DNA of 64,000 nt from positions 62,001 through 126,000 of the forward strand of contig JAJDDD010000010.1 of the NCBI GenBank assembly GCA_029260495.1, written 5' to 3'. Numbering within the stretch: the stretch's first letter is position 1; every line of letters begins with the position of its first letter. The notes beneath the pieces are model-generated. The model saw only the letters and a list, made by a program, of their open reading frames with translations. It was not told the DNA's origin and ran no database searches. This DNA comes from Phycisphaerales bacterium. GTDB lineage: Bacteria; Planctomycetota; Phycisphaerae; Phycisphaerales; UBA1924. Positions 17,661 to 38,662 of this stretch are shown here, one piece after another. Made by a program: the position numbers and the translations under genes.

Positions 17661-18346
17661 CAGGGCTCCTCAGGGGCGCGAGCCTGGAGGCCGCGCGTCC
17701 TGAGACGCTCAAGCAATTCCGCTGCCAACTTTGGATCTTCAAACTTCTCAACGATTTTCTTTGCTGTTCGGGTTTGCATCGCGTTGAGATACGCGACCGC
17801 TTGCTCAAACTCGCCCCCTTCAATGAGGGTGGCGAGCAAAGCCTGGGCTTTGGCTGCGGGGAGCGACTGGTAGATCGCGAGAGATTTTTTGAACTGCTTG
17901 CTTCCTTCGAGTTCAGCGATCTCTGTGCGCATCTGCTCGAAGTCATCACGCTCGCTGGCAAGCAGGGCTCGCTCATCCTTAATCTCAGTGAGAATGCGCT
18001 CAAAGCTCGCGGTCATGTCGGCGAGATCGCGCTGGGCGCGGCTGGTCTGTTGGGCGTTCAGTTCGTCAAGCTCAGATTTTTGCAGCAATTTATCTTCAGC
18101 GGTAAGCGGCGGAAGGGCGGCGCGGGCTTCCTCTTCGGCGGTTATGACTGCGGCGGCGGCGACGTCGGCCTCCTCCTCTTCACGCGCTGCCTGCTCGGCG
18201 CGGGTTTCGACGATGATTTCACGAATGCGCTCGACGCGGGGGAGGTCCAGACGATCTGACGTGACGAGCCATCCGACGAAGCCGATGATCGAGAGGAGGT
18301 TGGCGATCGCGAGGACTGTGATGATTCGTATGATCGCTTTAAGCAT
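17660..18346 (-). CDS. MotE/YlxF-like protein (MgtE_N-like domain)
   Basis: A 228-residue protein with one N-terminal transmembrane helix (about residues 5-28) and a long Glu/Ala-rich coiled coil. Its C-terminal helical repeat (YQSLPAAKAQALLATLIEGG, AVAYLNAMQTRTAKKIVEKF, KLAAELLERL) resembles the MgtE intracellular N domain. Proteins of this build lie between fliJ and fliK in many operons: YlxF in Bacillus, and MotE, a MotB chaperone, in Campylobacter. Position and architecture match; the primary sequence is divergent. It overlaps fliJ by one base and abuts fliK, so it is almost certainly co-transcribed. A stator-assembly role is inference. Confidence 0.75.
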   Translation of the reverse strand: MLKAIIRIITVLAIANLLSIIGFVGWLVTSDRLDLPRVERIREIIVETRAEQAAREEEEADVAAAAVITAEEEARAALPPLTAEDKLLQKSELDELNAQQTSRAQRDLADMTASFERILTEIKDERALLASERDDFEQMRTEIAELEGSKQFKKSLAIYQSLPAAKAQALLATLIEGGEFEQAVAYLNAMQTRTAKKIVEKFEDPKLAAELLERLRTRGLQARAPEEP

Positions 18347-24014: not shown

Positions 24015-24356
24015 TCAGGTGCGGACCTGTTTGATCTCGTCGTAGGCGTCCATCATCTTGTTGCGAACCTGCAGGAGCATGCGGAAAGCGTTGTCAGCGT
24101 TCTGCGTGGCGAGCAGCACGCCTTCGATGTCGGTGCGTCGGCCTGCTTCGATGTCTTCGATGGCTTGTGTAGCGTCCTGCTGAAGCTCATTCACCTTGTT
24201 GAGGCTCTCCATCAGGACATCCTTGAAAGAAGGCGCGTTGGGATCGGCGATGGGGCCGCCCGCGGGAGTGCGCCCGGGGCCTCCCGGCATCCCCGGCAGC
24301 GGCGGGATAGGTGAGACGCCGCCGGTGTTTCCGATGAGGCCGAGTGGATCAGACAT
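24015..24356 (-). CDS. fliE: Flagellar hook-basal body protein FliE
   Basis: Adaptor joining the MS ring to the rod. The 113-residue protein has a Gly/Pro-rich N-terminus (about 40 residues, longer than usual) and the conserved FliE helices FKDVLMESLNKVNELQQDA, DIEGVLLATQNADNAFRML and QVRNKMMDAYDEI. GGGAG lies seven bases upstream of the ATG. Confidence 0.94.
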   Translation of the reverse strand: MSDPLGLIGNTGGVSPIPPLPGMPGGPGRTPAGGPIADPNAPSFKDVLMESLNKVNELQQDATQAIEDIEAGRRTDIEGVLLATQNADNAFRMLLQVRNKMMDAYDEIKQVRT

Positions 24357-24404: not shown

Positions 24405-24851
24405 TCATGCGATGAGCCCCAGGGCGCTTGCCATCATCGACTTGGAGGCCTCGGCAACCATCACATTGGCTTCATAGGCGCGCGACGCCTCCATCGCGTT
24501 GAGCCATTCGATAGTTGTATCGATATTTGGATGATTCACATATCCCTCGACCTGATCGTTCGCTGGATTTGTTTCCTTGGCGGCGAGGGGGTGGTTTGGA
24601 TCGAAGACTTTGCGAAAAGGCGATTGATCAAGAGCGATTTCAGAGACGCGAACGCCGAGGGATTCGCCGGATTGGCTGCCTGGCCGGTTGGAAGCGCCCG
24701 GCGCGAGCAACGCGAGGCGGCGGCGGTAGGGATCGGCCTCTCCGCGATCGTTGGCGATGGAGCCAGCGTTTGCGATGTTGGCAGCGATGACGTTGAGGCG
24801 GGTTCGCTGGGCGATCATGCCGCTAGTTGAGATGTCCAGAGCGCCGTACAT
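24405..24851 (-). CDS. flgC: Flagellar basal-body rod protein FlgC
   Basis: Proximal rod subunit of 148 residues. N-terminal motif: ALDISTSGMIAQRTRLNVIAANIANAGS; C-terminal motif: GYVNHPNIDTTIEWLNAMEAS followed by RAYEANV. Both are diagnostic for FlgC. It lies between flgB and fliE, 17 bases after the flgB stop. Confidence 0.97.
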   Translation of the reverse strand: MYGALDISTSGMIAQRTRLNVIAANIANAGSIANDRGEADPYRRRLALLAPGASNRPGSQSGESLGVRVSEIALDQSPFRKVFDPNHPLAAKETNPANDQVEGYVNHPNIDTTIEWLNAMEASRAYEANVMVAEASKSMMASALGLIA

Positions 24852-24868: not shown

Positions 24869-25309
24869 TTAGACGCGCTCGCTGATGGCGGTTCGGAGAA
24901 GGTCAAAACGACTGCGAATCATGTCAGAAGCGAAACGATGAGCGGAGGCGTTCTCGACGAGATCCTGCATGAGCCGTTCGAGATCGCGGTTATTGCGGTC
25001 ATGGAAAAGGACATTTCGGCCCGCTTCACGAGGGACGAGTTTAAGATCTCCGCGGGCGTCGCGGCGCAACTCACGGGTTTGGCGGATGTTGAGGTCGCCG
25101 CGCGTGCCGCCGAAGGATTTGCGTCGCTTGTCGATGGCGCTGCCTAGTTCACGCTGAAAATCCTTGATGGAGACATCTTTGGGGCGAAAATCAGGCGTGG
25201 AAACGTTAGCGATGTTATGCGCAATGATGCGATGCCTCTGGCCGGCGAAGCGCAGCATCGCTGAGAGGGTTGGAAGGGCGTCGGCATTGGCGAGATCATC
25301 GATGCGCAT
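24869..25309 (-). CDS. flgB: Flagellar basal-body rod protein FlgB
   Basis: Proximal rod subunit and first structural gene of the fla operon. It has the rod N-terminal motif LSAMLRFAGQRHRIIAHNIAN followed by VSTPDFRPKDVSIKDFQREL. The C-terminal half (DRNNRDLERLMQDLVENASAHRFASDMIR) matches the usual FlgB C-terminus. The ATG at 25309 gives 146 residues, close to normal; ATGs at 25345 and 25402 would extend it. None has a strong ribosome-binding site, so the start is uncertain. It follows the response regulator gene on the same strand after about 140 bases, a likely promoter site. Confidence 0.93.
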   Translation of the reverse strand: MRIDDLANADALPTLSAMLRFAGQRHRIIAHNIANVSTPDFRPKDVSIKDFQRELGSAIDKRRKSFGGTRGDLNIRQTRELRRDARGDLKLVPREAGRNVLFHDRNNRDLERLMQDLVENASAHRFASDMIRSRFDLLRTAISERV

Positions 25310-25449
25310 GGTTGACTTGGAATTCTTCAGCAATCGGCGAGCCATGATTGAATGTGGCGTCAGGCGATGTTCTGTGGGTTTTCGATCACGCTGTGTATGC
25401 AAGGCAGGTTGGATTGCGCAGGACTTGCGCGTCTCTTTGTGTTGGTGAG

Positions 25450-26955
25450 CTAGAGGGTTTCGGAGACGAGCTGCTCTTCCTTCCAGCGTTTGAGTTTGAG
25501 GCCGAGCGTGCGCACGCCGATGCCGAGCGCCTTGGCGGTTCTTTGGCGGTGGCCGTCAAATTGGGCGAGTGTTTCGACGATGACCTGCCTCTCGATGTCT
25601 TCGAGCTTGCGCGGCTGATCAAAAATGATGGGTTGGGAGGGAGCGTCAGTGGGCGTGGTCTTGGCCTCGATGATTGCTGACGGCGCCGGAGCAATCGCGC
25701 GAGTCTGAACCGACAGAGTGGTGCGGGCAGGCGCGGCGCCCCCGAGGAGCCAGGGGTGGATGAGGTCAGCCTCGATGACATCGCCGGGACAGAGCACGAC
25801 AGCGCGCTCGCAGATGTTCTGCAACTCTCGAACATTGCCCGGCCAGGAGTAGGTTTGCAATAGCTGAATCGTATTGGGGCTGATTGTCTTTTTGGCGCGG
25901 CCCTCGCGATTGCAAACGGCGCCTACAAAGTGTTCGGCGAGGGCGGGCACGTCAGCCTGGCGCTCACGCAGTGGTGGGATGTGAATCGGGAGCACATTGA
26001 GCCGGAAGAATAGGTCTTGCCGGAATGATCCCTTCTCAACTTCAGCGGGCAGGTCACGGTTGGTTGTTGCGATGACGCGGACATCCACTCGGATTGTTGC
26101 GCTGGAGCCGACGCGCTCAAAGGCCTGCTCCTGCAGCACGCGCAGGAGTTTTGCCTGAATCTGCGGGCTGACTTCACTGATTTCATCGAGCAGGAGCGTC
26201 CCGCCGTCGGCGAGCTCGAATCGACCCTTGCGCAGGCGCTCGGCGCCGGTGAAAGCGCCTTTTTCGTGGCCGAACAGTTCGGATTCGAGCAGAGACTCAG
26301 CGAGCGCGGCGCAGTTCATGGTGAGGTATACATCATCAATGCGCGGGCTGAGTTCATGGATAGCGCGCGCGACTACTTCCTTGCCGACGCCTGATTCACC
26401 CTGGATGAGCACGCTGCCTTGTGATCCTGCGATGGAGCGAAGCTGACTCTTGACATACTCCATGGCGTCGGATTGTCCGATGATGCGGTTAATGCCGACT
26501 CGCTGGGGGCTGCCCGCGCCCTCCTGAACCGTGATTCGTGATGCACCCGAATCAGCAACGGTAATGCGAAGCACCGCGTTGTCGCGTTTGAGCTTTGTAT
26601 GTTCGATGGCGCGCTTCACCGCGACGAGCAGTTCGTCCCCTTCAAAGGGCTTGGTGATGTAGGTGAATGCGCCGAGTTTCATTGCTTTGACAGCACTGTC
26701 GACGGCGCCAAAGGCTGTCATCATGACGACGGGCAGATCTTCATCAAACTCGCGCACATGTTCGAGCAGCTCGAGGCCTGTCATGCCGGGCATTTTGAGA
26801 TCGGTGACGACGGCGTCGGGTTTGCGCCTTGAGATGATGTCTAGCGCCGCCTGTCCGCCGCTTGCTGCGAGCACGGTGAAACCAGCGCGTTGTAAGGTGA
26901 TGCCAACGCTGTCGCGCAGCATGTCTTTATCGTCAACAACAAGAATAGTGCTCAT
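25450..26955 (-). CDS. Sigma-54-dependent response regulator, FlrC/FleR-like
   Basis: NtrC-family transcription activator of 501 residues. In order: a receiver domain with phospho-acceptor D52 (VVTDLKMPG); an AAA+ domain with Walker A GESGVGKE, the sigma-54 contact loop GAFTGA and LLLDEISEVSPQIQAKLLRVLQ; then a Fis-type helix-turn-helix (RQRTAKALGIGVRTLGLKLKRW). Intact GAFTGA and receiver Asp imply an active phosphorylation-dependent activator of RpoN promoters. It overlaps its partner kinase by four bases and sits just upstream of flgB, so control of flagellar genes as by FlrC/FleR is the natural inference. Substrate promoters were not found by eye. Confidence 0.92.
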   Translation of the reverse strand: MSTILVVDDKDMLRDSVGITLQRAGFTVLAASGGQAALDIISRRKPDAVVTDLKMPGMTGLELLEHVREFDEDLPVVMMTAFGAVDSAVKAMKLGAFTYITKPFEGDELLVAVKRAIEHTKLKRDNAVLRITVADSGASRITVQEGAGSPQRVGINRIIGQSDAMEYVKSQLRSIAGSQGSVLIQGESGVGKEVVARAIHELSPRIDDVYLTMNCAALAESLLESELFGHEKGAFTGAERLRKGRFELADGGTLLLDEISEVSPQIQAKLLRVLQEQAFERVGSSATIRVDVRVIATTNRDLPAEVEKGSFRQDLFFRLNVLPIHIPPLRERQADVPALAEHFVGAVCNREGRAKKTISPNTIQLLQTYSWPGNVRELQNICERAVVLCPGDVIEADLIHPWLLGGAAPARTTLSVQTRAIAPAPSAIIEAKTTPTDAPSQPIIFDQPRKLEDIERQVIVETLAQFDGHRQRTAKALGIGVRTLGLKLKRWKEEQLVSETL

Positions 26956-27920
26956 GAGTCGCCTCCCTGCGGCCCATCAGTGTGAACTGCTGGTTGAGAT
27001 GTTGCTGCGGGAAAGAGCAACTCGACAATCGCGCCGCCCTCCTCAGCGTTGCGGATGCGCACGCCTCCTGCATGCGCATCCATAATTCGATGCACGATCG
27101 CCAGCCCAAGCCCCGTCCCCACCGCCCGCGTGGTGAAGAAGGGGTTGAATGCTCGCTGGATCGCTTCGTTTGAAACGCCAGAACCGGTGTCGCGCACAAT
27201 GATTGCGGTCATTGCTTCGCGCCCGCGCTGCGACGAGGTGCGCGTTCGGTTTTCGATCGCAATGCGCACTTCACGCGGACCTGCCGCTGCGCGATGATGT
27301 TCGTTGATCGCATCGCAGGCGTTGCGAATGACGTTCACGAGCGCCTGATGCACAAGCGCTGAATCACAATGAATGACTGCCTGAGCCTGGATTCCCTGCT
27401 GAACAACTATACGCGCCTCAGCGCTGGTGATTGATTCCGCGCACGCCTCCAGCGCGTGGTTGATCATCTCAATCGCTGAGTTCGATTCTGGTTGAATGCG
27501 AATTTCCCGAGCAAACATGAGCACATCTGACACGACGTGATCAAGCGATTGCACTGCGCGTTTGATTTTCGTCGCGACGACCTGCTCATCTGGGCGATCA
27601 GCCAAATCATCCATGAGCATGGATGCGTACAGTCCGATGGAGCCGAGCGGATTGCGAACTTCGTGGGCGATGCCGGCTGCCATCTCTCCCAAAGCAGCGA
27701 GCTCTCTACTGCGGCGCAGCTCGCGATTTGCCTGGGAAAGCTCGCTTTCAAGACGACTTACTTCGCTGCGCAGAACTTCATGCGTCCCTTGCAATCGGGC
27801 GGTTATTTCGTTGAACTGGGCAAAGAGCTCCGCTAGGTCTGTCTGATTCAAGGCAGGCGCTTCTGCGGAGTTGAAGGAGGTGACCGGGATTGTTGCGAGT
27901 TGAACTGACATGGGCGACAT
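26952..27920 (-). CDS. Soluble histidine kinase, FlrB/FleS-like
   Basis: Sensor kinase of 322 residues without a membrane helix. An N-terminal coiled coil (QLxTHEVLRSEVSRLESEL region) leads into HisKA with phospho-acceptor H86 (GIAHEVRNPLGSI). The HATPase_c domain has the N box around NVIRNACDAI, G1 in VRDTGSGV and the F and G2 boxes (FNPFFTTRAVGTGLGLAI). The cytoplasmic build resembles FlrB/FleS, whose input is the state of basal-body assembly. It directly precedes the FlrC-like regulator and follows the FlgN-like gene, with its ATG touching that gene's stop. ATG codon 4 is an alternative start. Confidence 0.9.
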   Translation of the reverse strand: MSPMSVQLATIPVTSFNSAEAPALNQTDLAELFAQFNEITARLQGTHEVLRSEVSRLESELSQANRELRRSRELAALGEMAAGIAHEVRNPLGSIGLYASMLMDDLADRPDEQVVATKIKRAVQSLDHVVSDVLMFAREIRIQPESNSAIEMINHALEACAESITSAEARIVVQQGIQAQAVIHCDSALVHQALVNVIRNACDAINEHHRAAAGPREVRIAIENRTRTSSQRGREAMTAIIVRDTGSGVSNEAIQRAFNPFFTTRAVGTGLGLAIVHRIMDAHAGGVRIRNAEEGGAIVELLFPAATSQPAVHTDGPQGGDS

Positions 27921-28436
27921 CTATCCTTCCCGATCCTGATATCGAGGCGTCGTCTTTGTCCCTCGTCGCGGGGAGTAGGCAGCCATTGCGGATTTTGCTC
28001 GCGACATCGAGTGCAGTTCGTCAGCGACATTATTCCGACGCTTTTCCAAAGCGGTTCGATCCTCACCATCGCGCTGAGCAATTGTCATGATGAGTTCCGC
28101 GAGGTCGCGCACGCGATCGTTGAATGTTCGCTGTCTACGCGCAGGCAGGTGCTCGATCAACTGCTCCCAGTTCTCCCGGTACGGCACAAAATCCTCTGTA
28201 GCTCGCTGAAAACGATCAAGCATCTCCTGACGTTCCGCGAGAACCTGGAGCAAGCCATCGGAATCGCCTGATTCAATAAGCGATCGCTGGGTCTGGCTGA
28301 GCCGATCAAGGGCATCGACACAGACGCGCTGTTCTTCAAGAATAGCGTCAAGCTTTGGCGCCCAACGATCGGGGTCGTCCATGGCGATCGCGCCGGCGAG
28401 ATTGGCTGATGATCTGTGTGTGGCGTCATTGTTCAT
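27921..28436 (-). CDS. FlgN-like helical protein (candidate export chaperone)
   Basis: A 171-residue, predominantly helical and charged protein without signal or membrane segment. The pattern LDAILEEQRVCVDALDRLSQ, SLIESGDSDGLLQVLAERQE and MLDRFQRATEDF recalls FlgN/FliT export chaperones, which carry a helical hairpin that holds hook-associated proteins. Its place immediately upstream of the flagellar kinase/regulator pair supports a flagellar role. Similarity is at the level of architecture and short motifs only; an unrelated coiled-coil regulator is possible. Confidence 0.55.
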   Translation of the reverse strand: MNNDATHRSSANLAGAIAMDDPDRWAPKLDAILEEQRVCVDALDRLSQTQRSLIESGDSDGLLQVLAERQEMLDRFQRATEDFVPYRENWEQLIEHLPARRQRTFNDRVRDLAELIMTIAQRDGEDRTALEKRRNNVADELHSMSRAKSAMAAYSPRRGTKTTPRYQDREG

Positions 28437-28486: not shown

Positions 28487-30988
28487 CTACTCTTCAGAGT
28501 CATTGTGCGCTGCGAGTTGAGCGCTTGATTCAAACCATCGCTCCCAGTGTGACTTCTGCCCAGGATGACTGGGGTCATCAAAGACGGCGTCGGGCAGCTC
28601 ATTCAGGCGCCGCTGGGCTCGCTCGTTGGCGGTCTGGGCCTCTGCCCATGCGCCCTGAGCGACATATGCGTTGACAATCTGCATCATCGCAACGAGCGAA
28701 GCAGGGTCGTCGGCATAGCGCTGGGCTGCAGCGTCATAGTGCGTAATCGCGGCGTCGTACTCACCAAGGTCAAAGGCGCAATCGGCCATGAAGAAGAGCG
28801 CGTTGCGTTGATACAGTTGTTCAAGAGGAGAAAGTGAGCTCTGCGTTCGCGCGTCAAGAAACGCGTGCATTTCGTCATAAAGCGCGGCGGCCCGTCGCAG
28901 GCGAGAATTCCGTTCAGCCATCAACTCGCGCCGGCGCCCCTCGGGCATTGCTTCCTGCAATGTGCGGTCCATCTCGACAGCGCTCAAACGATGGGCCTCG
29001 GCGAGGCGAAATTTCACCTTGGCGATCTCAACATCATCCGGGAAGCGGCGAACAGCTTCATCCAGGCGACGAATCGCATCTTCGTACCTGTCCGCGCGAA
29101 GAAGCAGTCGGCCCAGCTCAAAGAGGGCGTTACGAAACTCCGGAGTTTCAGGAGAAAGACGCAGCCGGCCATCGACAATCATGGAAAGCAGCCGTTCAGC
29201 CTCAGCGTCGTTCTCCATGTTGTCATCAAGCAGGTAGGCCTGCGCGAGTTTGAGATAACTTCGACTTCCTTCGGAAGACTTCGGGTTGGTGTCGATCAAG
29301 TCCTTGAAGAACTGGGCCGCCAGTGCGTGTTCGTTGTTGGCCATGTGCGCCATGCCGATTCGAAAGAGCGCGAGCGGATGACGTGGGTCATCCGCATGAC
29401 CTGATGCGAACTCGTTGTACGCTTCGATCGCGCGGTCAGTTTCCCCTGCGAAATCAAAATCTTCACCCGCTTTCCAAAGTGAGTTTGCCTGGCTGGCGGG
29501 ATCCTCAAGAATAATTGCTCGGGCATGCTGGATGTAGTAATCGCCTGCCTGCGCGAAGTACGCGCGCCCTTCAGCCCGTGTGACCTGATCAATCAAGCTG
29601 AGATCAATATCGCCTGTATTCGTGTCGCGCGCGGGAGCGATGAGATCGTTAGCGAGCGCCTCAAGCGTGCGCGCCAGCATAAGATAGACGCCTGCGGTGA
29701 CGTCTTCACCCTGAAGTGACTCCAGAATTCGGACGTAGCGCAAGGCGTTGTCATAATCAGCGCGAACGAATCGCTCCTGATGTTGCAACGCGAGACTCGA
29801 CGCCAGGCTTTCCTTCGTCACGGACCCACGCCGGGTGCGAAGTGGCAACTGCTCAGCGAGCGTTTGATAGGCAGAGAGTGAGGCTGTCGCATTTCCCAGA
29901 GCGGCTTCCACCTCGGCGAGCCCGAGCATCGCCGGAAGCTCTGCGCCTGTAGCAGGATAATCGTTGACGACGATGGTGAAGGAATCGCGGGCTTCCTGAA
30001 GATCGCCAGCCATCTGGCGCATTCGGCCTTGCAACGCGAAGGCGGCGCCGCGTGTTGGATCAGTTTCCGGAAATTCATCGAGCGCGCGATGGAGTTGCCG
30101 CTCAGCGTCTTCGAATCGCCCCATTTCAAAGTACGCGCGAGCGAGGTAGAGATAAATCTCCCCACCGGTTGATCCGCTGAGGCGCTGGGTCTTCCCGTGG
30201 CGCTGGATCGCTCGAAGCATATGCGTGAGCGCCTCTTCGGGCTCGCCTGAATCCAGGCGGAGCTGCGCCTGCCTGGCGATCATCCACAGGCGATCGTCAT
30301 CAGAGAGCGTTGGGGCAGCGGCAAGCTCGGAGAGCAGGTCAAGCGTGAACTGCACCCGCACGCCCTCTGCTTCAAGACTGCGCATCACCATCCGTTTGAG
30401 CAGCGAGCGCTTCCACTCCTCTTGAGATTCTGGAAGGTCATCCAGCCATCGTCTGGCTTCATCGAACCGCCCGAGTGAGATGAGCGTGTCCGCGTACGCT
30501 GACTGCTGAGCGGGTGAGAGTTGAGCGAGCAGCTTCTCAGCTTCGTCATACTCGGCCAGCACCGCGAGATGGTTGTCGCGCACATCGAGTCCCTGCTCAA
30601 CCTGCGCTCTGTAAATTGTGTCGCCGCGAAGCAGATGGAAACGACGCCTGTCCTCTCGCGTCGCCTCCTTATCAACGAGATGAGGGAGGATCTCATTGTT
30701 GAGCTTGGCGAGCGACTCATCAAATCGCGCGCCCTCGATGAGCAACGCGACATCATCCATCGCGGCGTCGAAGTCAGGCCCCGGCGCCGATGCTGAGGAC
30801 ATGACAACGCCCATCGCGAGCAGCAGAAGGCCACCGCCGAGCGTGGGAATTTGCCAGAGTTCGCGCCAAGATTGTTTTTCCGGCGTCTTTTCCTCCGTGT
30901 CGTCGCCATTCTCAGCGCGCGACGACTCTTCCTCCCCCTCATTGAGGGACTCGGCGGAATTTTCCGGATCGGCGTCGTCCTTGGGCAC
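28487..30988 (-). CDS. Large TPR-repeat membrane-anchored protein
   Basis: An 833-residue protein. The acidic N-terminus (residues 1-40) is followed by one transmembrane helix (about 48-67, IPTLGGGLLLLAMGVVMSSA) and then roughly 750 residues of tetratricopeptide-like helices. Examples are LYLARAYFEMGRFEDAERQL, LGRLLLRADRYEDAIRRLDE and FDLGEYDAAITHYDAAAQRY. The N-in topology would put the TPR superhelix outside the inner membrane. TPR proteins scaffold complexes; no enzymatic motif is seen. It precedes the FlgN-like gene by 50 bases and could belong to the flagellar transcript or to the envelope genes upstream. No specific function can be given. Confidence 0.8.
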   Translation of the reverse strand: MPKDDADPENSAESLNEGEEESSRAENGDDTEEKTPEKQSWRELWQIPTLGGGLLLLAMGVVMSSASAPGPDFDAAMDDVALLIEGARFDESLAKLNNEILPHLVDKEATREDRRRFHLLRGDTIYRAQVEQGLDVRDNHLAVLAEYDEAEKLLAQLSPAQQSAYADTLISLGRFDEARRWLDDLPESQEEWKRSLLKRMVMRSLEAEGVRVQFTLDLLSELAAAPTLSDDDRLWMIARQAQLRLDSGEPEEALTHMLRAIQRHGKTQRLSGSTGGEIYLYLARAYFEMGRFEDAERQLHRALDEFPETDPTRGAAFALQGRMRQMAGDLQEARDSFTIVVNDYPATGAELPAMLGLAEVEAALGNATASLSAYQTLAEQLPLRTRRGSVTKESLASSLALQHQERFVRADYDNALRYVRILESLQGEDVTAGVYLMLARTLEALANDLIAPARDTNTGDIDLSLIDQVTRAEGRAYFAQAGDYYIQHARAIILEDPASQANSLWKAGEDFDFAGETDRAIEAYNEFASGHADDPRHPLALFRIGMAHMANNEHALAAQFFKDLIDTNPKSSEGSRSYLKLAQAYLLDDNMENDAEAERLLSMIVDGRLRLSPETPEFRNALFELGRLLLRADRYEDAIRRLDEAVRRFPDDVEIAKVKFRLAEAHRLSAVEMDRTLQEAMPEGRRRELMAERNSRLRRAAALYDEMHAFLDARTQSSLSPLEQLYQRNALFFMADCAFDLGEYDAAITHYDAAAQRYADDPASLVAMMQIVNAYVAQGAWAEAQTANERAQRRLNELPDAVFDDPSHPGQKSHWERWFESSAQLAAHNDSEE

Positions 30989-31112
30989 GTCAGTAGCGTC
31001 CTTGCTGCTTCAGTAGGCGATTCTTGCGCGGTGGTGTTATCGGGCGACTGGCTCACTGTGCTGCAACCAAACGCGCAGATTCTGCCGAGATTATCGCACG
31101 ACGATCCGCTAC

Positions 31113-32759
31113 CTACTCTGACTGGGCTGATTCATCATTGCTCGCTGGCGGTGTCTTCCTGATGACCAGCGTGCCCGCGACAATGTCGCCCGCATGCCGT
31201 CGATTTGGATCAACAACGACAAAGAGCGTGATCGGCGGCGCGACAGCCTTAATGACGGTGCGCGACAGCGCCTGCCAGGGTGTGGGACGCCCGCCCGCGA
31301 TCGAGACGGTTTGCAAACCGAGCAGCGCTTTCCCCAGTGTTCGCCCCGCGAGCGCCTCACCCGCTGCCGAGTGAGCTGCGTAGATTCCGATGGCTGTGAG
31401 CAAGGGCCAGATACCCCCCGCCGCCGGGGATTGCAGTGGAAACGCTAACAGTTCCAGCGCGCTCACACCCCAGATCGCCTGGGCTCCAAAAAGGGCTGGA
31501 GCGATGTCAATGAGGGCGGCGAACAAACGCTGGCCGGGTTCAGCCATCGCGGCGCCTTGCGGGAGGTCGATCGCCTGTCGCGACGCTGCTTCGGGCTTGA
31601 GAAGAAAGACGAGGATCGTCAGCACGACCGCACTGAGCAGGATGCCGAGAAACTGAATGTCCTCAAGAGGGAGCAGCGTTGGAACGGCTCCGAAATCGTC
31701 ATAAAAGATGCGCCCGGTGATCGCGGAGACGATGATCAGGTGCGGGCGGGCTTCCTCCGCCTCACGCCACGCGAGGCAGATTTTTTCCCCCACGCTGAAA
31801 ATGACGGCGTCCTGAGGCGCGTTCTCAATGCGCGCGACCGCCACATGTCCGCTGTCAGCAATCAGGGAGAGCGAAACGCTTGCATCAGTTCGGGAAGCAG
31901 CCAACAGCCGGTCGCCTGCAGAGATGAGCTGCTCTTCCGGGGTTAGTGACGCAACGTCACGCCGAGTCCACTTAACTTCATGGCGAGGCTGAACAATGAT
32001 CGCTTCTTCATCCGTTTCTACGCTTGCTGATTCTGTGCCAGACTGTTGCTCAACTGGCGCGGGCGCTACCCGGTCTGCCTGCCAAAGAAGTGCTGTTTGA
32101 GCATCGTCGCGAACGAGCAGAGCGAAACCGTCGCCGACTGCGAGCAGTTCAAGATGATCGACAGCGCCCTTGATGCTTTTCGGCAGATCAATGACAGTCC
32201 AATCAACGCCCCACAACGCTGAAAGCGAAATCGCGCCGCCTTCATCACGCTGTAGAGCGACCAAACCCCACCGTGTGTCCACAAAACCGATCAACTCGCC
32301 CTGAACCGGCAGCGACGGCTCAACGGTAAACCGGCCCTCGGGCTCATATATATAAAAACCAGGCGCCGGAGCTGGTGTCGCGGTGAGTGAACGAACCGAA
32401 GCAAGCGATCCGCCGCTGACAGCCCCTTCCTTGCGTTCGCGCGGCGCAAACACCATGCTGACCCGATCACCCCAGGCAGCGAGCGCCATTGGCAGCTCCG
32501 GCAAGCTGCGCGCGGGGATCGCCAACCCCGGCGAAACGCCGTCGCCCGGTATGTGAAGCAGCTTCCCGGCCGGCGCCGCAGCGTTGACCGCGTCACTCTC
32601 CATAACAAGCCACCCGGAGTGGCTCTGGCCCGCGCCGAAGAGAACACTCGCTGCGGTCAATGTCTGAGCGCTGCCAACAATGAATGCCGTCATGATGAGC
32701 GCGCGAAGCGCCTTCGCCGCCCAAGCCGGCGCTGAATGGCTGCTCATCGCTCGCGCCAT
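31113..32759 (-). CDS. RDD-domain membrane protein with exported N-terminal domain
   Basis: A 548-residue protein. A hydrophobic N-terminal segment (LRALIMTAFIVGSAQTLTAA) looks like a signal peptide or anchor. About 320 residues rich in beta strands follow, perhaps a propeller-like sensor domain (VDTRWGLVALQRDEGG, LLAVGDGFALLVRDD). One membrane helix (LGILLSAVVLTILVFLL) leads to a C-terminal RDD domain with PGQRLFAALIDI, GRTLGKALLGLQTVS and VDPNRRHAGDIVAGTLV. RDD domains are three-helix membrane modules of mostly unknown function. The gene overlaps the preceding lipoprotein gene by 16 bases (M1) or about 4 (M5), so translation is coupled. Confidence 0.8.
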   Translation of the reverse strand: MARAMSSHSAPAWAAKALRALIMTAFIVGSAQTLTAASVLFGAGQSHSGWLVMESDAVNAAAPAGKLLHIPGDGVSPGLAIPARSLPELPMALAAWGDRVSMVFAPRERKEGAVSGGSLASVRSLTATPAPAPGFYIYEPEGRFTVEPSLPVQGELIGFVDTRWGLVALQRDEGGAISLSALWGVDWTVIDLPKSIKGAVDHLELLAVGDGFALLVRDDAQTALLWQADRVAPAPVEQQSGTESASVETDEEAIIVQPRHEVKWTRRDVASLTPEEQLISAGDRLLAASRTDASVSLSLIADSGHVAVARIENAPQDAVIFSVGEKICLAWREAEEARPHLIIVSAITGRIFYDDFGAVPTLLPLEDIQFLGILLSAVVLTILVFLLKPEAASRQAIDLPQGAAMAEPGQRLFAALIDIAPALFGAQAIWGVSALELLAFPLQSPAAGGIWPLLTAIGIYAAHSAAGEALAGRTLGKALLGLQTVSIAGGRPTPWQALSRTVIKAVAPPITLFVVVDPNRRHAGDIVAGTLVIRKTPPASNDESAQSE

Positions 32760-33715
32760 CCATCTACTCCTGATCCAACGTCAGCCAGTGCAGGCTGTGG
32801 GCAGGCGGCGTCGAGCACAACGACCTCCGCAGGCCGATGCGCTTGCCGTAATGATTCAAATGAAAATGCAGCGCCGGGAATTTGATCACCCCGACGCCTG
32901 CCATCCGTCATGACAGGCAGCGAAATGCGCAGCTCCCCCTCCTGGCCCGGCTGGGTGATGGTGACGCGCGAGGCTGCATATGGAAAAAATCCACCGACAT
33001 TGCGCAGTTCAACCGGAGCGTAATCTTCAAGTTTGCTCATGACGATGATCTGGCGCGTGTGCGCATCAAGAATCTTGATCCACACAGGCTGGTGGTTTTC
33101 CGGATCGAGAAAGCTCTGCACAAATCCCGTGTGTCCGGGCCGTTCGATCACAAGGTACTTCCCGTCCCGCGTCCAGCCTGTGCGCCCGCCAGTTGTTCGC
33201 ACAGGTAGAGACGTGACGCCCATGAGTTCGATCACATCGCGCGGGTAGGCTGGAAGTCCAACGGGTTCGGCGCACGCGCTGCCGAGATTGGCGTGCCGGC
33301 CCACAAACGCCCGGCCTGCATCCTCCAACTCAAACCACCAGAACCGCTCGCTGTCACACCCGAGCCAGAAGAGGGTCTGCGAAAGTTTACCCACACTCAG
33401 TGCAAGTCGATCCGGCGCCAGCAGTTGAACATGCCCTTCACCCTGCTCGTCTCGCAGATTTCCATCTTCATCCGCGTAGCGCAGACGCACGACCGCTGAC
33501 GCCCAGAGTCGCGGAATCCGCTCTGTCCGCCGGTTGTATTCTTGCACAACTTCGGCGTAGCTCGGCGCCGTCCCACGATCGACGGGCGCCGGACCTGCGC
33601 CAACGCCATCCGTCGCACAGCCCGTGATTACAGACCCCAACCCCACTAAAAAAATTATCGAAAACAAACGAGCAAGCCGCTGAATGCCGCCCGTATTCTT
33701 CTGACTTATTCTCAC
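32744..33715 (-). CDS. Putative lipoprotein, LolA-like fold possible
   Basis: A 323-residue lipoprotein. The signal sequence ends in a lipobox (LGSVITGC, Cys near residue 32). The mature part begins with a helix (YAEVVQEYNRRTERI) and a series of beta strands (LWASAVVRLRYADEDGNL, RLALSVGKLSQTLFWLGCDS, VWIKILDAHTRQIIVMSKLE). Start, length and strand pattern suggest a LolA/DUF4292-like half-barrel, but I cannot confirm homology. It overlaps the upstream 33712-34233 gene by four bases and the downstream RDD gene by 16. These three are therefore a tight operon, probably acting together in the envelope. Confidence 0.7.
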   Translation of the reverse strand: MRISQKNTGGIQRLARLFSIIFLVGLGSVITGCATDGVGAGPAPVDRGTAPSYAEVVQEYNRRTERIPRLWASAVVRLRYADEDGNLRDEQGEGHVQLLAPDRLALSVGKLSQTLFWLGCDSERFWWFELEDAGRAFVGRHANLGSACAEPVGLPAYPRDVIELMGVTSLPVRTTGGRTGWTRDGKYLVIERPGHTGFVQSFLDPENHQPVWIKILDAHTRQIIVMSKLEDYAPVELRNVGGFFPYAASRVTITQPGQEGELRISLPVMTDGRRRGDQIPGAAFSFESLRQAHRPAEVVVLDAACPQPALADVGSGVDGWRER

Positions 33716-34233
33716 GCCGCCCCCCTCAGGGCCATATCAAGCTGCTCGGTGACATCGGCGATGGTGACTTCATCCAGATCGGGATCGACCACCTCGATGC
33801 AGGCCGCATCCGGATCCCAGCCATCTGGGCCGCGCGTCTGGACGAGCAACACGTTCACATCATCACGTTGGAGGGTGCTCTTGTGTCGAAGAATCCTTTT
33901 ACGAATCAGGATCAGCGCCAGGATGAATCGGAATGCCACCCGGCGTCGCTCGCTGACGCCTTCAAGCTGTTCGAACAGATCGAGCAACGCAGTGTCGTCA
34001 ATCAGCGGGTCTGGCTTCGCGTCCGGATGCAGCACGACATAACGCCAAAATCCAAAGAGTCGCCCCGGTCGCGAGCCTTTGTTCCAACCCTCTTCGGAAT
34101 AATCGAGTCGCTCCAGCTCGGCGCCGTCGTCTACCAACGCTGCGACTGCACAATCCCCGGGCTCGAGCGGCTCGCCTGTGGCGGCGCAACGCCCCGTCCC
34201 GCGCGGCACTGAGAACGAGTCAGCTTGAAGCAT
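33712..34233 (-). CDS. Conserved hypothetical protein, planctomycete-type
   Basis: A 173-residue soluble protein starting with a Cys-containing motif (SVPRGTGRCAATGEPLEPGD). It continues with LDYSEEGWNKGSRPGRLFGFWRYVV and a C-terminal half with a helical region (FRFILALILIRKRILRHKST) and acidic strands. From memory, proteins with this N-terminal pattern (a Cys-x-TG-x-x-L-x-PG element, then an aromatic motif) recur in planctomycete genomes. Function is unknown. It is coupled by a four-base overlap to the lipoprotein gene. Confidence 0.7.
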   Translation of the reverse strand: MLQADSFSVPRGTGRCAATGEPLEPGDCAVAALVDDGAELERLDYSEEGWNKGSRPGRLFGFWRYVVLHPDAKPDPLIDDTALLDLFEQLEGVSERRRVAFRFILALILIRKRILRHKSTLQRDDVNVLLVQTRGPDGWDPDAACIEVVDPDLDEVTIADVTEQLDMALRGAA

Positions 34234-34310: not shown

Positions 34311-34526
34311 TTAGTTGGTTCTGAACATGCGCTGCGATGTGCCGCCCGAGCCAATGCGCGCATGAACCGGGGCTCCACACCGCGGGCACCGCCCCACATA
34401 CATCGTCCCCGCCTGATTCCGGTGGATGCGAGCGTAGACCGAGCAGCACGAAAACCACACGCCGAGCCATGGACGCTGGCCCGATGCCTGATCGCTCTGA
34501 TTTGCAGGACGTTCGCGATTCATCAT
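34311..34526 (-). CDS. Small zinc-ribbon-like protein, planctomycete-type
   Basis: About 71 residues from the ATG at 34526 (34523 is the alternative). The core WLGVWFSCCSVYARIHRNQAG followed by GRCPRCGAPVHARIG and GGTSQRMFRTN carries a CxxC (CPRC) and an earlier CC pair, so a zinc-binding fold is likely. I recall near-identical small proteins in planctomycetes; no function is known. The start lies inside the end of the cyclodeaminase-family gene upstream, a 24-base overlap. Confidence 0.75.
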   Translation of the reverse strand: MMNRERPANQSDQASGQRPWLGVWFSCCSVYARIHRNQAGTMYVGRCPRCGAPVHARIGSGGTSQRMFRTN

Positions 34527-34548
34527 GGCGAAGATCGGCGTGCTCGCG

Positions 34549-35184
34549 TCAGGAGCTTGAGTCCGCCTGGGTGGCGCAGGCATCCCGGATCTCTCGCGCT
34601 AGAGTGACTGCTCGTCGGCAGGCGTCACGACTTGAGCTTGTTATGGCGTCCGCTTCAGCGACGTGCGAAGACTCAGCGAGCAGCGAGGCGTTGACCAGCA
34701 CGTTCTCAATCGCTGCCTCCGCCGCCACGCCCCCCAGCGATGCGGCTATCGCCAGATCGCTCGCCAGCCGGTGTGAGGTTCTGGCTGGCAGCTGCGCGAG
34801 TAAGACCAGAAGCTCATGGCTCACATCAAGAAGCCTCGCGGGAACGTTCATGGCGCCAAAGGCTGCGCCCGCCATCCGCTCCTCCTGAGTTGGGTCGTCC
34901 GCGTTGATCTTCATCGCGTCTGAAAGAGTCGCATAGGCAACGGCATCTTCATCGGCCAGCGACACAAAGAGAGCACGAAGGTCTTTCAGACTTTCTTCCG
35001 CCTGTCGCAGCGATTCTTCGTGCTGCGCGAGTTGCTTCTTGCCAATGGAGTATCGCACGACCATCAGCGCAAGCGACGCTGCCATCGCTGCTGCCAATCC
35101 CGCGACGGCGCCCCCGCCGGGCGTCGGCGTCCGAGCGGAAAGATCATCGAGCAGTTGTTGAACCGTTCGCGTCGCTAGAGACAT
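34549..35184 (-). CDS. Cyclodeaminase/cyclohydrolase family protein (FTCD_C)
   Basis: A 211-residue all-helical protein of the formiminotransferase-cyclodeaminase C-terminal family, acting on one-carbon tetrahydrofolate derivatives. Signatures are LLDDLSARTPTPGGGAVAGL and MVVRYSIGKKQL near the N-terminus, a central DEDAVAYATL segment, and LASDLAIAASLGGVAAEAAI near the C-terminus. As a free-standing domain it could be a methenyl-THF cyclohydrolase (FchA-like) or formimino-THF cyclodeaminase. No other folate or histidine-degradation gene lies nearby. It starts two bases after the TgpA-like gene stops. Confidence 0.85.
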   Translation of the reverse strand: MSLATRTVQQLLDDLSARTPTPGGGAVAGLAAAMAASLALMVVRYSIGKKQLAQHEESLRQAEESLKDLRALFVSLADEDAVAYATLSDAMKINADDPTQEERMAGAAFGAMNVPARLLDVSHELLVLLAQLPARTSHRLASDLAIAASLGGVAAEAAIENVLVNASLLAESSHVAEADAITSSSRDACRRAVTLAREIRDACATQADSSS

Positions 35185-35186
35185 TT

Positions 35187-37433
35187 TCAGCTCCGCTCAT
35201 TCTGTGTTATCTCGCTGCCCGCCACCATGCGCAGTCGGCGCTGCACCGCTTCAAGCAACTCGCCAGCGTGATTCACTTGCGCCGCAGAGAGCGACTGACG
35301 ACCAAACTTTGAACAGTAATAAAGATCAGTTAAGGACGCAGCAGCCTCTGCCAGCTCGAAATCGCGTGACGCCAGGATCTGAGCATGCTGCATCGGCGGG
35401 CGCCACGCTGGCTTGGCCATCCCCGCTCGCGCGAGCGCGCGAAGGAACTCCGCATAAAACATTGTCTGCTTTTGGCGCTCCAGCAAGCCGGGATCGTCTC
35501 GAAGTTGCTCTTGCCATCTTTGTTTCCGAGCCAGCCGCATGCGCACAAACGCGACCACCCGAACCGCGATCAACCCGACACCAAACACACCCGCAAAGGC
35601 GAGAACACCCTGAGTCAGCGCCGCCATCGAGCGCCTGCCAAACTGGGAAAGATCTTCATCCAACATTTGGGCTCTTAGTCGCCCGCCCCCTGCCTGACCC
35701 TGCTCAGCCTCTTCGCCCAGGAAGCGATTCTGCGTACGCTGGTCATACCCGACGACCGTGTCCACCCAGAATCGCTCGGCCGCTTCAAAGAGTGAACGAA
35801 CACCAGCAAGCAGCCCCTCCTTTGGTTCATGGACGGTCGCGATATCTCCGGGTGGGGAAGGGTCAAACGTTTGCCACAACCCTGGCGCCACCAACGCCTC
35901 CATCCACGCGTGCGCATGGCTTTCGCGCACCAAAAAGGTCTCCCGGTCTTCGTCATACTCGATCGCCATGTATCCCGTCACGACGCGCGCATCAATCCCG
36001 ATGCTTCGGCACAACGCCGCCATCCCCGACGCGAAATACTCACAATGCCCACGTTTTGTGCGCAGTAGAAACATCTCGATTGGCTCTTCTCGAACGTTCG
36101 GAGCCAGCATTTCCAGTGTATACCGATATTGGGATTGCAAATATGCTTCAAAAGCGCTCGCGATCGCTGCATCATTCTCTGCATGCCGCTCGTTCAAGTC
36201 GCGCGACATGCCAACATTCGCCAATATCTCCTCAGCCAGATCATGGATCGCGCCTTTACGAAACATTGGCGGTTGCCTGCCTGTTTCAAACCGGGCGCCG
36301 CGCGTCGGAGTTTCGGCTTGGGAAATAACCGTGTAGGAAAATCGCCCGGACTTATTAATGCCAATGGTCTGGTCAGCTGCACCGATTGAATAGGGCGCGA
36401 AGTCGTCCATAGAAAACTGCACCGCTCGATGCATCGCGAAAAGCTTTTGAGACTGCTCATTTCGAAAGGTAATCTCCTGCCGATAAAGAGGCGCATCGGA
36501 CGCCACCGGACTGACCGGAATAACTGCCCCCGGTGAGGTGGTGCCCCGCATTTGCACCGAGTTGCGATCAGAATCGCTCAGCCACTGTCCATCGCGATAT
36601 TCACTAAGAACGGCGCCGCGCATGCGAATTTGTCGATCAAAGACATCCGCTGCGTTTTCGCCGTCTTCATCAAAGACGCGCATCTCGAATACGGGTGTTG
36701 TTGATTCGCTGATAAATCCCTCATCCCCAAGACGCACCTCATCCTGGAATGCGGTGAAGGAGCCAATGGGCGGCGCCCCGATGCCGCCCATCATCGTTGT
36801 TGTCATGCGCCTGGGAATGAACATAAAGACCACAGTTGTGATGATGATCGTCGCCAGCGCACTCGTCAAATACAAAAAACGAAAATCTCTTCGAGAGCGA
36901 ATGGCCCGCAAGCGCTTCGGACTGCACTCTACTGACGGACAAATATTTTCGTCATCATGTTCATGCGCTCGCTGTTCACCAACATGAATCTGATGCAGCA
37001 TGATCGTCCACAGCGCCAACGGCAGATAGATGATGACTGTCATTCCCAGCGCCACAGAGTTGCTGGTCATGCAGGCGCCAAGAACGAGAAAAAGGCTCAT
37101 CGCCAGCATCTGCCCCAGATCGCGCGTCGAAACGCGATCGTAGAGTTTGATCAGAAGCAGCCACACGATGTACCTGCTGATTGCTGCGATCAGATCTTCG
37201 GGCGTCTGTAAGATTGTTGCGAATGTATGCGCCGTGGCTGCGATGAGGAAGGCAGCAATGAGAAGCTTTGGAATCGGCGGGGCGCCATCCCGTCGGGCGA
37301 CAAACCAGGACGCGGCCCACGCGGGAATTGTTATCAGCGCGAGCACTGCGCTCCATTCTGACACGCAGTAGCTGATAATCGCTGCCCCGATTGTCAGAAA
37401 AAGAAACAGCTTGTATCGGCGAGTCAGATTCAT
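35187..37433 (-). CDS. TgpA-like membrane transglutaminase
   Basis: A 748-residue protein with the TgpA/DUF3488 architecture. The N-terminal membrane bundle (residues about 8-210) is followed by an extracytoplasmic transglutaminase core with Cys464 (RGHCEYFASGMAALCRS), His508 (SHAHAWMEAL) and Asp524 (QTFDPSPP), so the catalytic triad is complete. A C-terminal transmembrane helix (about 603-630) and a cytoplasmic DUF4129-like tail complete it. It shares a four-base overlap with the DUF58 gene, the usual partner. The substrate is unknown; TgpA-type proteins are linked to envelope integrity. Confidence 0.9.
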   Translation of the reverse strand: MNLTRRYKLFLFLTIGAAIISYCVSEWSAVLALITIPAWAASWFVARRDGAPPIPKLLIAAFLIAATAHTFATILQTPEDLIAAISRYIVWLLLIKLYDRVSTRDLGQMLAMSLFLVLGACMTSNSVALGMTVIIYLPLALWTIMLHQIHVGEQRAHEHDDENICPSVECSPKRLRAIRSRRDFRFLYLTSALATIIITTVVFMFIPRRMTTTMMGGIGAPPIGSFTAFQDEVRLGDEGFISESTTPVFEMRVFDEDGENAADVFDRQIRMRGAVLSEYRDGQWLSDSDRNSVQMRGTTSPGAVIPVSPVASDAPLYRQEITFRNEQSQKLFAMHRAVQFSMDDFAPYSIGAADQTIGINKSGRFSYTVISQAETPTRGARFETGRQPPMFRKGAIHDLAEEILANVGMSRDLNERHAENDAAIASAFEAYLQSQYRYTLEMLAPNVREEPIEMFLLRTKRGHCEYFASGMAALCRSIGIDARVVTGYMAIEYDEDRETFLVRESHAHAWMEALVAPGLWQTFDPSPPGDIATVHEPKEGLLAGVRSLFEAAERFWVDTVVGYDQRTQNRFLGEEAEQGQAGGGRLRAQMLDEDLSQFGRRSMAALTQGVLAFAGVFGVGLIAVRVVAFVRMRLARKQRWQEQLRDDPGLLERQKQTMFYAEFLRALARAGMAKPAWRPPMQHAQILASRDFELAEAAASLTDLYYCSKFGRQSLSAAQVNHAGELLEAVQRRLRMVAGSEITQNERS

Positions 37434-38662
37434 GACGGCGTCCTTCCCGCTGCGGCGACGGCGTCCTTTTTCTCGTTCGATGAGCGCATGCGTTTCGTTT
37501 CCGAGAAGGCCTGCCCCGCTATCCCTTCACGGCTTCTCTCGGCGGCCTGGCCATTAAGTTGGGAAGCGTCAATGATAATCCGCTCGCGTCCTTTCGAAAC
37601 GCCCGCATCAAAATCACCTCGGTGAACATCAAGATCATTGAGTTTGATCAACGCCAACTCTGTCAACAAAGGGGCAACCGGCGCGCCCCGGGAGCCTACA
37701 CCCGTTGGCGCTGCAATCGCATGCACGCCCGCCGCCGGAACAATCAACTCAACGGTGCGCCCTGCGATCGCCACACGCTCAATCCACCCAGCAGCAATGG
37801 AAATCGCCTGCTCGCCGGATTCCTCTGCTTCCACCGCGTCTGCGGACATGCCCAAACCTTCCCCTGCCGTCGGTGCGCTCAGAAGCAGCACGATCTCAAC
37901 ACGCTTGGCGCTGGGCGCAGACATCTCCCGCACGACAAGCTCCCCCCGCCGCGCCGATGCGCGCCATGCAATTGTCTGGCGACTGTCACCGGGCACATAT
38001 TCGCGCACGCCGACGTACTCGCTGCTGCGCCCGAGGCGACCGAGGACCAACGCCGTAATCTCCCCGCCGTCCGCCTGCCCCGCGGAGATATTCGAAGCCG
38101 GATCAATTGCAGCCGGCAGAATAATCGTCCTGCTCACATTCTCAAATATGATTGATTTGCGCACAATGCCGAAGGGGAAACAACTCTCGACTCGAAAAGC
38201 GATCAGCTCCAACTCCCCGCGTTTGTGTGGAATGACGACCGTCTCAGCCATCGCGGTTCCGCGCGGCGCCACGTGCGGCACAAATGCAACCATCTTGAAA
38301 AAAAACTTCCGCCAATCCCGATGATCCCGCTTTGCCCGCTCGCGCCCGCGCGCCGGTCTGGGCTCCAGTTCTATGATCGTCAGAGCGAACGCCGGAACGA
38401 ACAGATTCCTCGAACGCACCAGGTATCGCACGCGAAACGGCTCGCCCACCCGGCCCGTTGGCGGCATCTCACGCTCCACTTCCAAGCCCATGAGCATCGA
38501 GCCGCTCACGAGCCCCGAAATGAGCAACCCCGCGATCGCCAAACCAAGCGCTACGAAAATAAGATTGTTCTGGCTGTTGACTGCGCCAACCGCGAGCAGC
38601 GCCATGACCGCGACATAGATAACCGCAGAGAGGGTCAGATGATATTGACGACGAGCATGCAC
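37430..38662 (-). CDS. DUF58 domain protein
   Basis: A 410-residue protein with two N-terminal transmembrane helices (VIYVAVMALLAVGAV and FVALGLAIAGLLISGLVSG) and a beta-rich middle. The DUF58 motif is YVGVREYVPGDSRQTIAW followed by RASARRGELVVREM. DUF58 proteins are typically encoded with a MoxR AAA+ ATPase and a TgpA-like transglutaminase. Here TgpA is present but no MoxR gene is adjacent. The role is probably in assembling or regulating an envelope complex; that is inference from the family. Confidence 0.9.
   Translation of the reverse strand: MHARRQYHLTLSAVIYVAVMALLAVGAVNSQNNLIFVALGLAIAGLLISGLVSGSMLMGLEVEREMPPTGRVGEPFRVRYLVRSRNLFVPAFALTIIELEPRPARGRERAKRDHRDWRKFFFKMVAFVPHVAPRGTAMAETVVIPHKRGELELIAFRVESCFPFGIVRKSIIFENVSRTIILPAAIDPASNISAGQADGGEITALVLGRLGRSSEYVGVREYVPGDSRQTIAWRASARRGELVVREMSAPSAKRVEIVLLLSAPTAGEGLGMSADAVEAEESGEQAISIAAGWIERVAIAGRTVELIVPAAGVHAIAAPTGVGSRGAPVAPLLTELALIKLNDLDVHRGDFDAGVSKGRERIIIDASQLNGQAAERSREGIAGQAFSETKRMRSSNEKKDAVAAAGRTPS

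Follow-up and report, generated by a model that had tools for sequence, protein, structure and literature searches.

Large TPR solenoids encoded with flagellar genes and a FlgY-like gene are known from the Campylobacterota, where PflA and PflB have been described (PMC12222027 and PMC11870540, in part); PflB, of 820 aa, has one N-terminal transmembrane (TM) helix and is defined by this helix and a β-pair (excerpts of PMC11870540). In the same excerpts, flagellar TPR proteins and FlgY are taken as the likely spokes and E-ring of the motor. A TPR scaffold with an E-ring protein is also found, as far as the description in a portion of PMC13023049 allows the likeness to be drawn, in MotC/MotK with MotE of alphaproteobacteria and in FlcA–FlcD with FlbB of Borrelia. 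LolB, the other system of relevance here, is a lipoprotein with a half-barrel fold and an apolar tip between strands β3 and β4. According to passages of a review, it is not identifiable outside the β- and γ-Proteobacteria (PMC11784454), and passages of PMC11885536 report LolB in Bacteroidota, where deletion of the β3–β4 loop of F. johnsoniae LolB1 abolished its function and a Leu-to-Glu exchange impaired gliding.

The window, i.e. the whole analysed stretch of 64,000 nucleotides (G000:C10:62001-126000), belongs to the 3.2-Mb genome of a Phycisphaerales bacterium. In a sequence-only reading, four of its genes, coding for a conserved hypothetical protein (P1), a lipoprotein, an RDD membrane protein and a TPR protein, had been taken as one tight envelope array between flagellar regulators and respiratory genes. 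The four genes proved real (Table 1), the first three overlapping as described, by 4 nt for P1/lipoprotein and 16 nt for lipoprotein/RDD, and a gap of 124 nt separates the RDD from the TPR gene (all by ORF coordinates). The RDD family (PF06271, 41.3 bits at a cut-off of 24.1) and TPR families in the 833-aa protein were confirmed by Pfam, and the same search returned no match of their own for P1 and the lipoprotein of the window. The quartet order was found again in fetched stretches of relatives, and the array is thus more than chance. The supposed location of all four products at the envelope held for three membrane or exported candidates, but not for P1, which shows no TM segment. When the window was scanned for sigma-54 patterns, 19 matches appeared vs 31.8 expected by chance, and the promoter/terminator scan gave nothing informative.

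Table 1. Positions of the quartet, its neighbours and the flagellar genes discussed in the text, numbered from the first letter of the window.
Feature	Position	Strand	Description
Small CC...CPRC protein	34311-34583	minus	directly upstream of P1; recurring neighbour of the module
P1	33712-34233	minus	173 aa
Lipoprotein	32744-33715	minus	323 aa, lipobox Cys33
RDD membrane protein	31113-32759	minus	548 aa; large N-terminal region precedes the RDD domain (residues 406-528)
TPR protein	28487-30988	minus	833 aa, GTG start; heads the flagellar operon
FlgN-like chaperone	27921-28436	minus	next after the TPR gene; PF05130, 32.4 bits, cut-off 30.5
Histidine kinase (HK), flagellar operon	26952-27920	minus	Pfam and conserved gene order
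NtrC-type sigma-54 response regulator (RR), flagellar operon	25450-26955	minus	Pfam and conserved gene order
flgB	24869-25402	minus	start codon not certain; rod match in Pfam at E 0.052 only
flgC	24405-24851		after flgB in flagellar order
fliE	24015-24356		after flgC in flagellar order
FlgY/MotE-like E-ring candidate	17660-18346	minus	228 aa, after fliJ

The occurrence of the four proteins was surveyed in 120 evenly drawn genomes of the class, using cut-offs of E ≤ 1e-3 for the P1 profile, 1e-3 for the lipoprotein profile, 1e-8 for the RDD profile, 1e-20 for a single TPR sequence and 1e-20 for FlhA (PF00771), the latter serving as a proxy for flagella that covers type III secretion too. P1 was detected in 117 genomes, the lipoprotein in 108, RDD in 94, the TPR protein in 60 and FlhA in 93, all RDD counts being upper bounds, since this profile picks up general RDD proteins as well. 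The 27 genomes without FlhA hold P1 in every case, the lipoprotein in 20 and RDD in 20, and none holds the TPR protein, which 60 of the 93 genomes with FlhA possess. The 33 FlhA-bearing genomes without a detected TPR relative indicate that the scaffold proposed below is either not universal or too diverged. Presence of TPR and FlhA coincides within two families: in f81 (17 genomes), 15 members lack both and the two with FlhA have the TPR protein, and in f2 (3 genomes) the two are present or absent together in each member. Occurrence in non-motile genomes, which the sequence-only reading had named beforehand as evidence against its proposal, was seen, with missing FlhA as the sign of such a genome, for the trio of P1, lipoprotein and RDD and not for the TPR protein. 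The flagellar link drawn earlier stands for the latter, which is confined to FlhA genomes and heads an operon, but not for the trio, which also occurs in genomes lacking FlhA. A link to nuo genes was rejected on the limited evidence of 14 P1-holding stretches of 9–20 kb, in which no nuoN, nuoM or nuoL match was found, the flanks of the 80 loci described below being too short for a verdict.

The four genes are two adjacent modules that meet at the junction of two operons, and we hold with high confidence that the trio is separate from flagella and the TPR gene flagellar. The reading that all four proteins form one flagellum-tied envelope complex, in which the trio would help to insert or stabilise motor parts, draws on gene order. 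RDD lies directly upstream of TPR in 10/57 class genomes with both, including 8/8 in the window's family; in the best 80 of 118 matched relatives, a second locus set that overlaps the survey genomes, P1 and the lipoprotein were found upstream on the strand of the TPR gene in 31 of the 51 loci whose upstream flank reaches 7 kb, 26 of these 31 containing RDD as well. Genus g2 (G002, G034, G095, G186) retains the quartet intact with FlhA and FlgY elsewhere, and no flgN, HK or RR was found within 4.4–7.7 kb after its TPR gene, so that TPR stays with the trio there, which speaks against a clean split. The quartet does stay together, as had been expected, in this genus and in many Phycisphaerales, but RDD and TPR are not neighbours in 47 of the 57 class genomes (in 40 they lie on separate contigs, in 7 far from each other), counts in which contig ends may hide neighbours. 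Against one complex there also stand the numbers of trio proteins in genomes without FlhA, and G206, a genome of the window's order, has P1, lipoprotein and RDD in a row without TPR or FlhA. A single four-protein flagellar complex was rejected on the occurrence of the trio without FlhA, and the dedicated inner-membrane complex of the sequence-only reading found no support; we consider the idea improbable. In Phycisphaerales the two modules commonly lie side by side, which allows a functional tie. Adjacency should not be read as one complex.

The TPR gene opens a conserved operon in the order TPR-flgN-HK-RR-flgB-flgC-fliE. Among the 62 loci whose downstream flank reaches 5 kb (best 80 of 118 relatives), both HK and RR follow the TPR gene in all 62, flgN in 59 and flgB in 61. 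In 19 fetched TPR stretches (L099, L101-L118), HK was found after TPR in 17, flgN in 16, RR in 16 and flgB in 14; one of them (L103, genome G218) has motA-motB in place of the usual run, and another (L115, genome G186) has nothing of the flagellar operon after TPR. In three genomes of the window's family (G230, G247, G253), the flagellar genes following TPR extend no further than RR or HK. The distance between TPR and FlhA in the 60 genomes was below 40 kb in 30; the two lie on different contigs in 27 and far apart in 3.

At its N-terminus, the TPR protein carries an acidic stretch of about 42 residues, followed by WQxP at the start of a TM helix (residues 43-67); among 59 relatives W45 never varies, and conservation of P48 is 90% or more. 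The model built from these 59 sequences (pLDDT 90.7) has the hydrophobic helix 43-67, with a less certain pLDDT of about 55-71 in the TM region, and then an all-helical solenoid. It shows the PflB-type plan of one N-terminal TM helix and a TPR solenoid, the latter presumably periplasmic, and its length is similar to that of PflB. Unlike PflA, it has no N-terminal β-sandwich (AMIN-like) domain, and unlike PflB no antiparallel β-pair: no strand of at least 3 residues is modelled, and isolated bridge residues occur only around positions 454 and 461. Strict identity with PflB was therefore rejected, the TM helix being present and the β-pair absent in the model. TPR solenoids resemble many unrelated proteins in structure searches. 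Foldseek listed mainly eukaryotic TPR proteins, with a C. jejuni motor scaffold chain (9hmf_K) as a weak, non-specific match at rank 18 (E 1.6e-8, TM 0.25), and VIA-align gave no flagellar protein or scaffold among the 50 matches listed, which excludes nothing. The YbgF/CpoB label given to the protein (TIGR02795, 98.4 vs 90.1 bits) was rejected as likely repeat-driven in view of 833 aa and flagellar neighbours. YbgF/CpoB, which we take to be a protein of about 260 aa with a coiled coil, C-terminal TPRs and a tol-pal locus, has the TPR repeats in common with the TPR protein, but the latter has a TM anchor and a flagellar operon.

In the FlgY/MotE-like protein encoded further along, a TM helix and a coiled coil precede a C-terminus resembling MgtE_N; a match to MgtE_N itself was obtained for 7 of the 13 members of its family, the window's copy not being among them. 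A strong FlgY-like match (E ≤ 1e-20) was obtained in 60/60 TPR genomes and in 1/60 others (G249), with weak matches in 12 further class genomes, an agreement that partly reflects sensitivity and distance because the FlgY and TPR queries were taken from the same families. By the traits that define flagellar TPR proteins in the available part of PMC11870540, the protein of the window is one, and thereby a potential PflAB homologue in the sense used there, having at least three consecutive TPRs, lying at most five genes from a flagellar cluster and occurring in a species with FlgY. The main text of that source, in the part available, names no planctomycetes; its species tables may hold planctomycete TPR proteins.

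From its model and operon, the TPR protein is probably a stator scaffold, a conclusion that we draw with moderate confidence. It would be anchored in the inner membrane by its single N-terminal helix, with the solenoid predicted in the periplasm, and together with the FlgY/MotE-like E-ring protein of the same operon the solenoid would form the scaffold, like PflA/PflB, MotC or FlcA. A role as a chaperone or in export docking during flagellar assembly, or one in polar placement, not in stator scaffolding, would suit a gene that stands first in the operon and adjoins flgN, and TPR proteins often act as adaptors. We nevertheless hold such a role to be unlikely, since the TM anchor and long solenoid, in their presumed topology, and the lockstep with the FlgY/MotE-like gene fit the scaffold pattern given in the excerpts of PMC11870540.

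The lipoprotein of the trio was modelled from 42 sequences (pLDDT 85.0) and adopts the LolA/LolB half-barrel fold. The best Foldseek match was LolA3 of P. gingivalis (E 2.3e-10), and VIA aligned the model with P. gingivalis LolB (9tpm; Z 18.0, rmsd 3.4, 225 aligned) and E. coli LolB (1iwm; Z 14.2, rmsd 2.9, 169 aligned), further matches being 3bk5 (Z 17.9) and a DUF1329 protein (Z 16.8) and weaker ones RseB (Z 6.3-6.6) and GerS (Z 6.3); the fold alone does not separate LolB from LolA or other members of the superfamily. PF17131 (LolA_like) matched 9 of the 42 family members (best 6.8e-06), and the window's copy matches no LolA family, PF17131 included. The N-terminal lipid anchor is predicted from the lipobox, its Cys being present in 39 of the 42 aligned rows, none of the 39 with Asp at +2. 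In the model, L111 stands in the short turn between strands 3 (103-110) and 4 (113-120); the residue is L, V, A, F or M and thus apolar in 42/42 rows, K110 is invariant, and a weak local alignment pairs L111 with Leu68 (mature numbering) of E. coli LolB. Lipoprotein signal and predicted half-barrel are common to the protein and to LolB of E. coli and Bacteroidota, and an apolar residue at the β3–β4 tip may be so as well, but its sequence is not significantly similar to that of E. coli LolB (hhalign with the lipoprotein family weak, probability 6%), the length is 323 vs 207 aa, and the gene is linked to P1 and RDD. Nothing came of sequence searches of the PDB, whether with the P1 or with the lipoprotein family.

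A LolB-like function of the lipoprotein is suggested with moderate confidence by the model. Its fold makes the outer membrane the likely location, at odds with the inner-membrane complex supposed earlier, and the half-barrel there would take up the acyl chains that other lipoproteins carry, or else some other lipid. The same fold might do a job other than the insertion of lipoproteins into the outer membrane, for instance the binding of a lipid or hydrophobic ligand or regulation of the RseB, DUF1329 or GerS type; DUF1329, RseB and GerS appear in the same VIA list, and no LolA partner stands out clearly in the genome, where PF03548 gave a sub-threshold match only (E 0.17) and Pfam no informative match for the LolA-like ORF. 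Most top rows of Foldseek and VIA, however, are carriers of the LolA/LolB superfamily, the lipobox and the apolar residue at the putative tip are conserved as described, and a LolD-like ATPase is encoded in the genome next to a LolC/E-like permease, which scores below its family cut-off. Another job is quite possible for the lipoprotein, if somewhat doubtful to us.

The LolB-like lipoprotein keeps close company with P1, which lies directly upstream in 90 of the 108 class genomes with both and in 21/23 families. This adjacency was seen in 81/88 genomes with FlhA and 9/20 without, 13 of the 18 exceptions falling in f81. The lipoprotein lies upstream of RDD in 57/87 class genomes with both, and the trio is inverted in two loci (L168, L190). 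In a phylum survey of 149 genomes, 88 of them of good quality, a single-sequence search (E ≤ 0.01) detected P1 in 115, among them 75 of the 88, and the lipoprotein was detected in 11 by single sequence and 23 by profile; outside the class, the lipoprotein is directly downstream of P1 in 7/7 sampled members of f29 and f70. P1 is soluble and belongs to a family without a Pfam or NCBIfam name, in which an R and a W are invariant and a basic helix, LALxLxRKR, is conserved. Its zinc-ribbon N-terminus is degenerate in the window, only the first of four Cys being kept. The CxxC...CxxC motif is complete in 20 of 41 phylum sequences; the lipoprotein was detected in the stretch at 0/20 of these four-Cys loci and at 13/21 others (Fisher p 1.6e-5, the sequences being related and not independent). 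The 41 loci also have an FTCD_C-like gene less than 2 kb upstream of P1 on the same strand (7), a dnaE-like gene divergent from P1 (8) and a PBP-like gene downstream (10), names that we assume from the look of the sequences, FTCD_C of the window being a Pfam assignment. Our guess is that P1 is a cytoplasmic accessory of envelope biogenesis. P1, LolB-like lipoprotein and RDD form an old envelope module, not a flagellar one.

The explanation as a whole, a LolB-like lipoprotein within an envelope trio and, next to it, a separate operon for a flagellar TPR scaffold, appears reasonably probable to us. More tentative, and rather unlikely, is a bolder joint version in which the P1 module would hold a true LolB of planctomycetes that escapes recognition by sequence, the zinc site of P1 having been lost in each sampled lineage with a LolB-like partner, and in which the TPR scaffold of the Phycisphaerales motor would be of a third type, with an inner-membrane anchor but lacking the β elements of PflA or PflB. 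A limited literature search of titles and abstracts found no paper on a LolB, a flagellar TPR scaffold or an RDD protein of planctomycetes. What is new here is the corrected unit and its new members, the kinds themselves being known.

From the lockstep of this TM-anchored TPR protein with a FlgY-like gene, the motors of planctomycetes are predicted to have an E-ring and a stator scaffold. A conserved LolB-like lipoprotein in the Planctomycetota makes the route of lipoproteins to the outer membrane outside the β- and γ-Proteobacteria testable in a further phylum.

Genes surrounding P1, the 173-residue protein that heads the trio with the LolB-like lipoprotein and the RDD protein, were compared among the fetched loci (L numbers), and their coordinates are collected below.

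Genes near P1 and on a second contig of the genome under study (G000)
Feature	Location	Strand	Position
Small protein with CC...CPRC motif	window 34311-34583	-	directly upstream of P1
FTCD_C (cyclodeaminase-like) gene	window 34549-35184	-	upstream of P1
TgpA-like transglutaminase gene and second membrane protein gene	window 35187-38662	-	upstream of FTCD_C gene
LolC/E-like permease gene, then directly LolD-like ATPase gene	L204 4239-6491 (G000:C6)	-	

An FTCD_C-like relative lies within 2 kb upstream of P1 at six other loci (L060, L061, L062, L067, L079 and L080). At L066, L072, L073, L076-L078, L081 and L082, which represent one part of the phylum, P1 has a dnaE-like gene in divergent orientation on one side and a PBP-like gene on the other. 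The small-protein gene adjoins P1 upstream in the window's family and at the more distant loci L053, L057 and L069; its product agrees in size with the PVC signature protein CT421.2 (PMC3444138).

Among the 80 named loci (the best 80 of 118 relatives matching the TPR gene), the TgpA-like gene and its membrane protein neighbour occurred together only at L119. The full planctomycete arrangement was also present at L189, on a contig labelled Cyanobacteria, which is probably a mislabelled bin. The permease and ATPase genes on contig C6 are possibly the LolDF pair of the window's genome.
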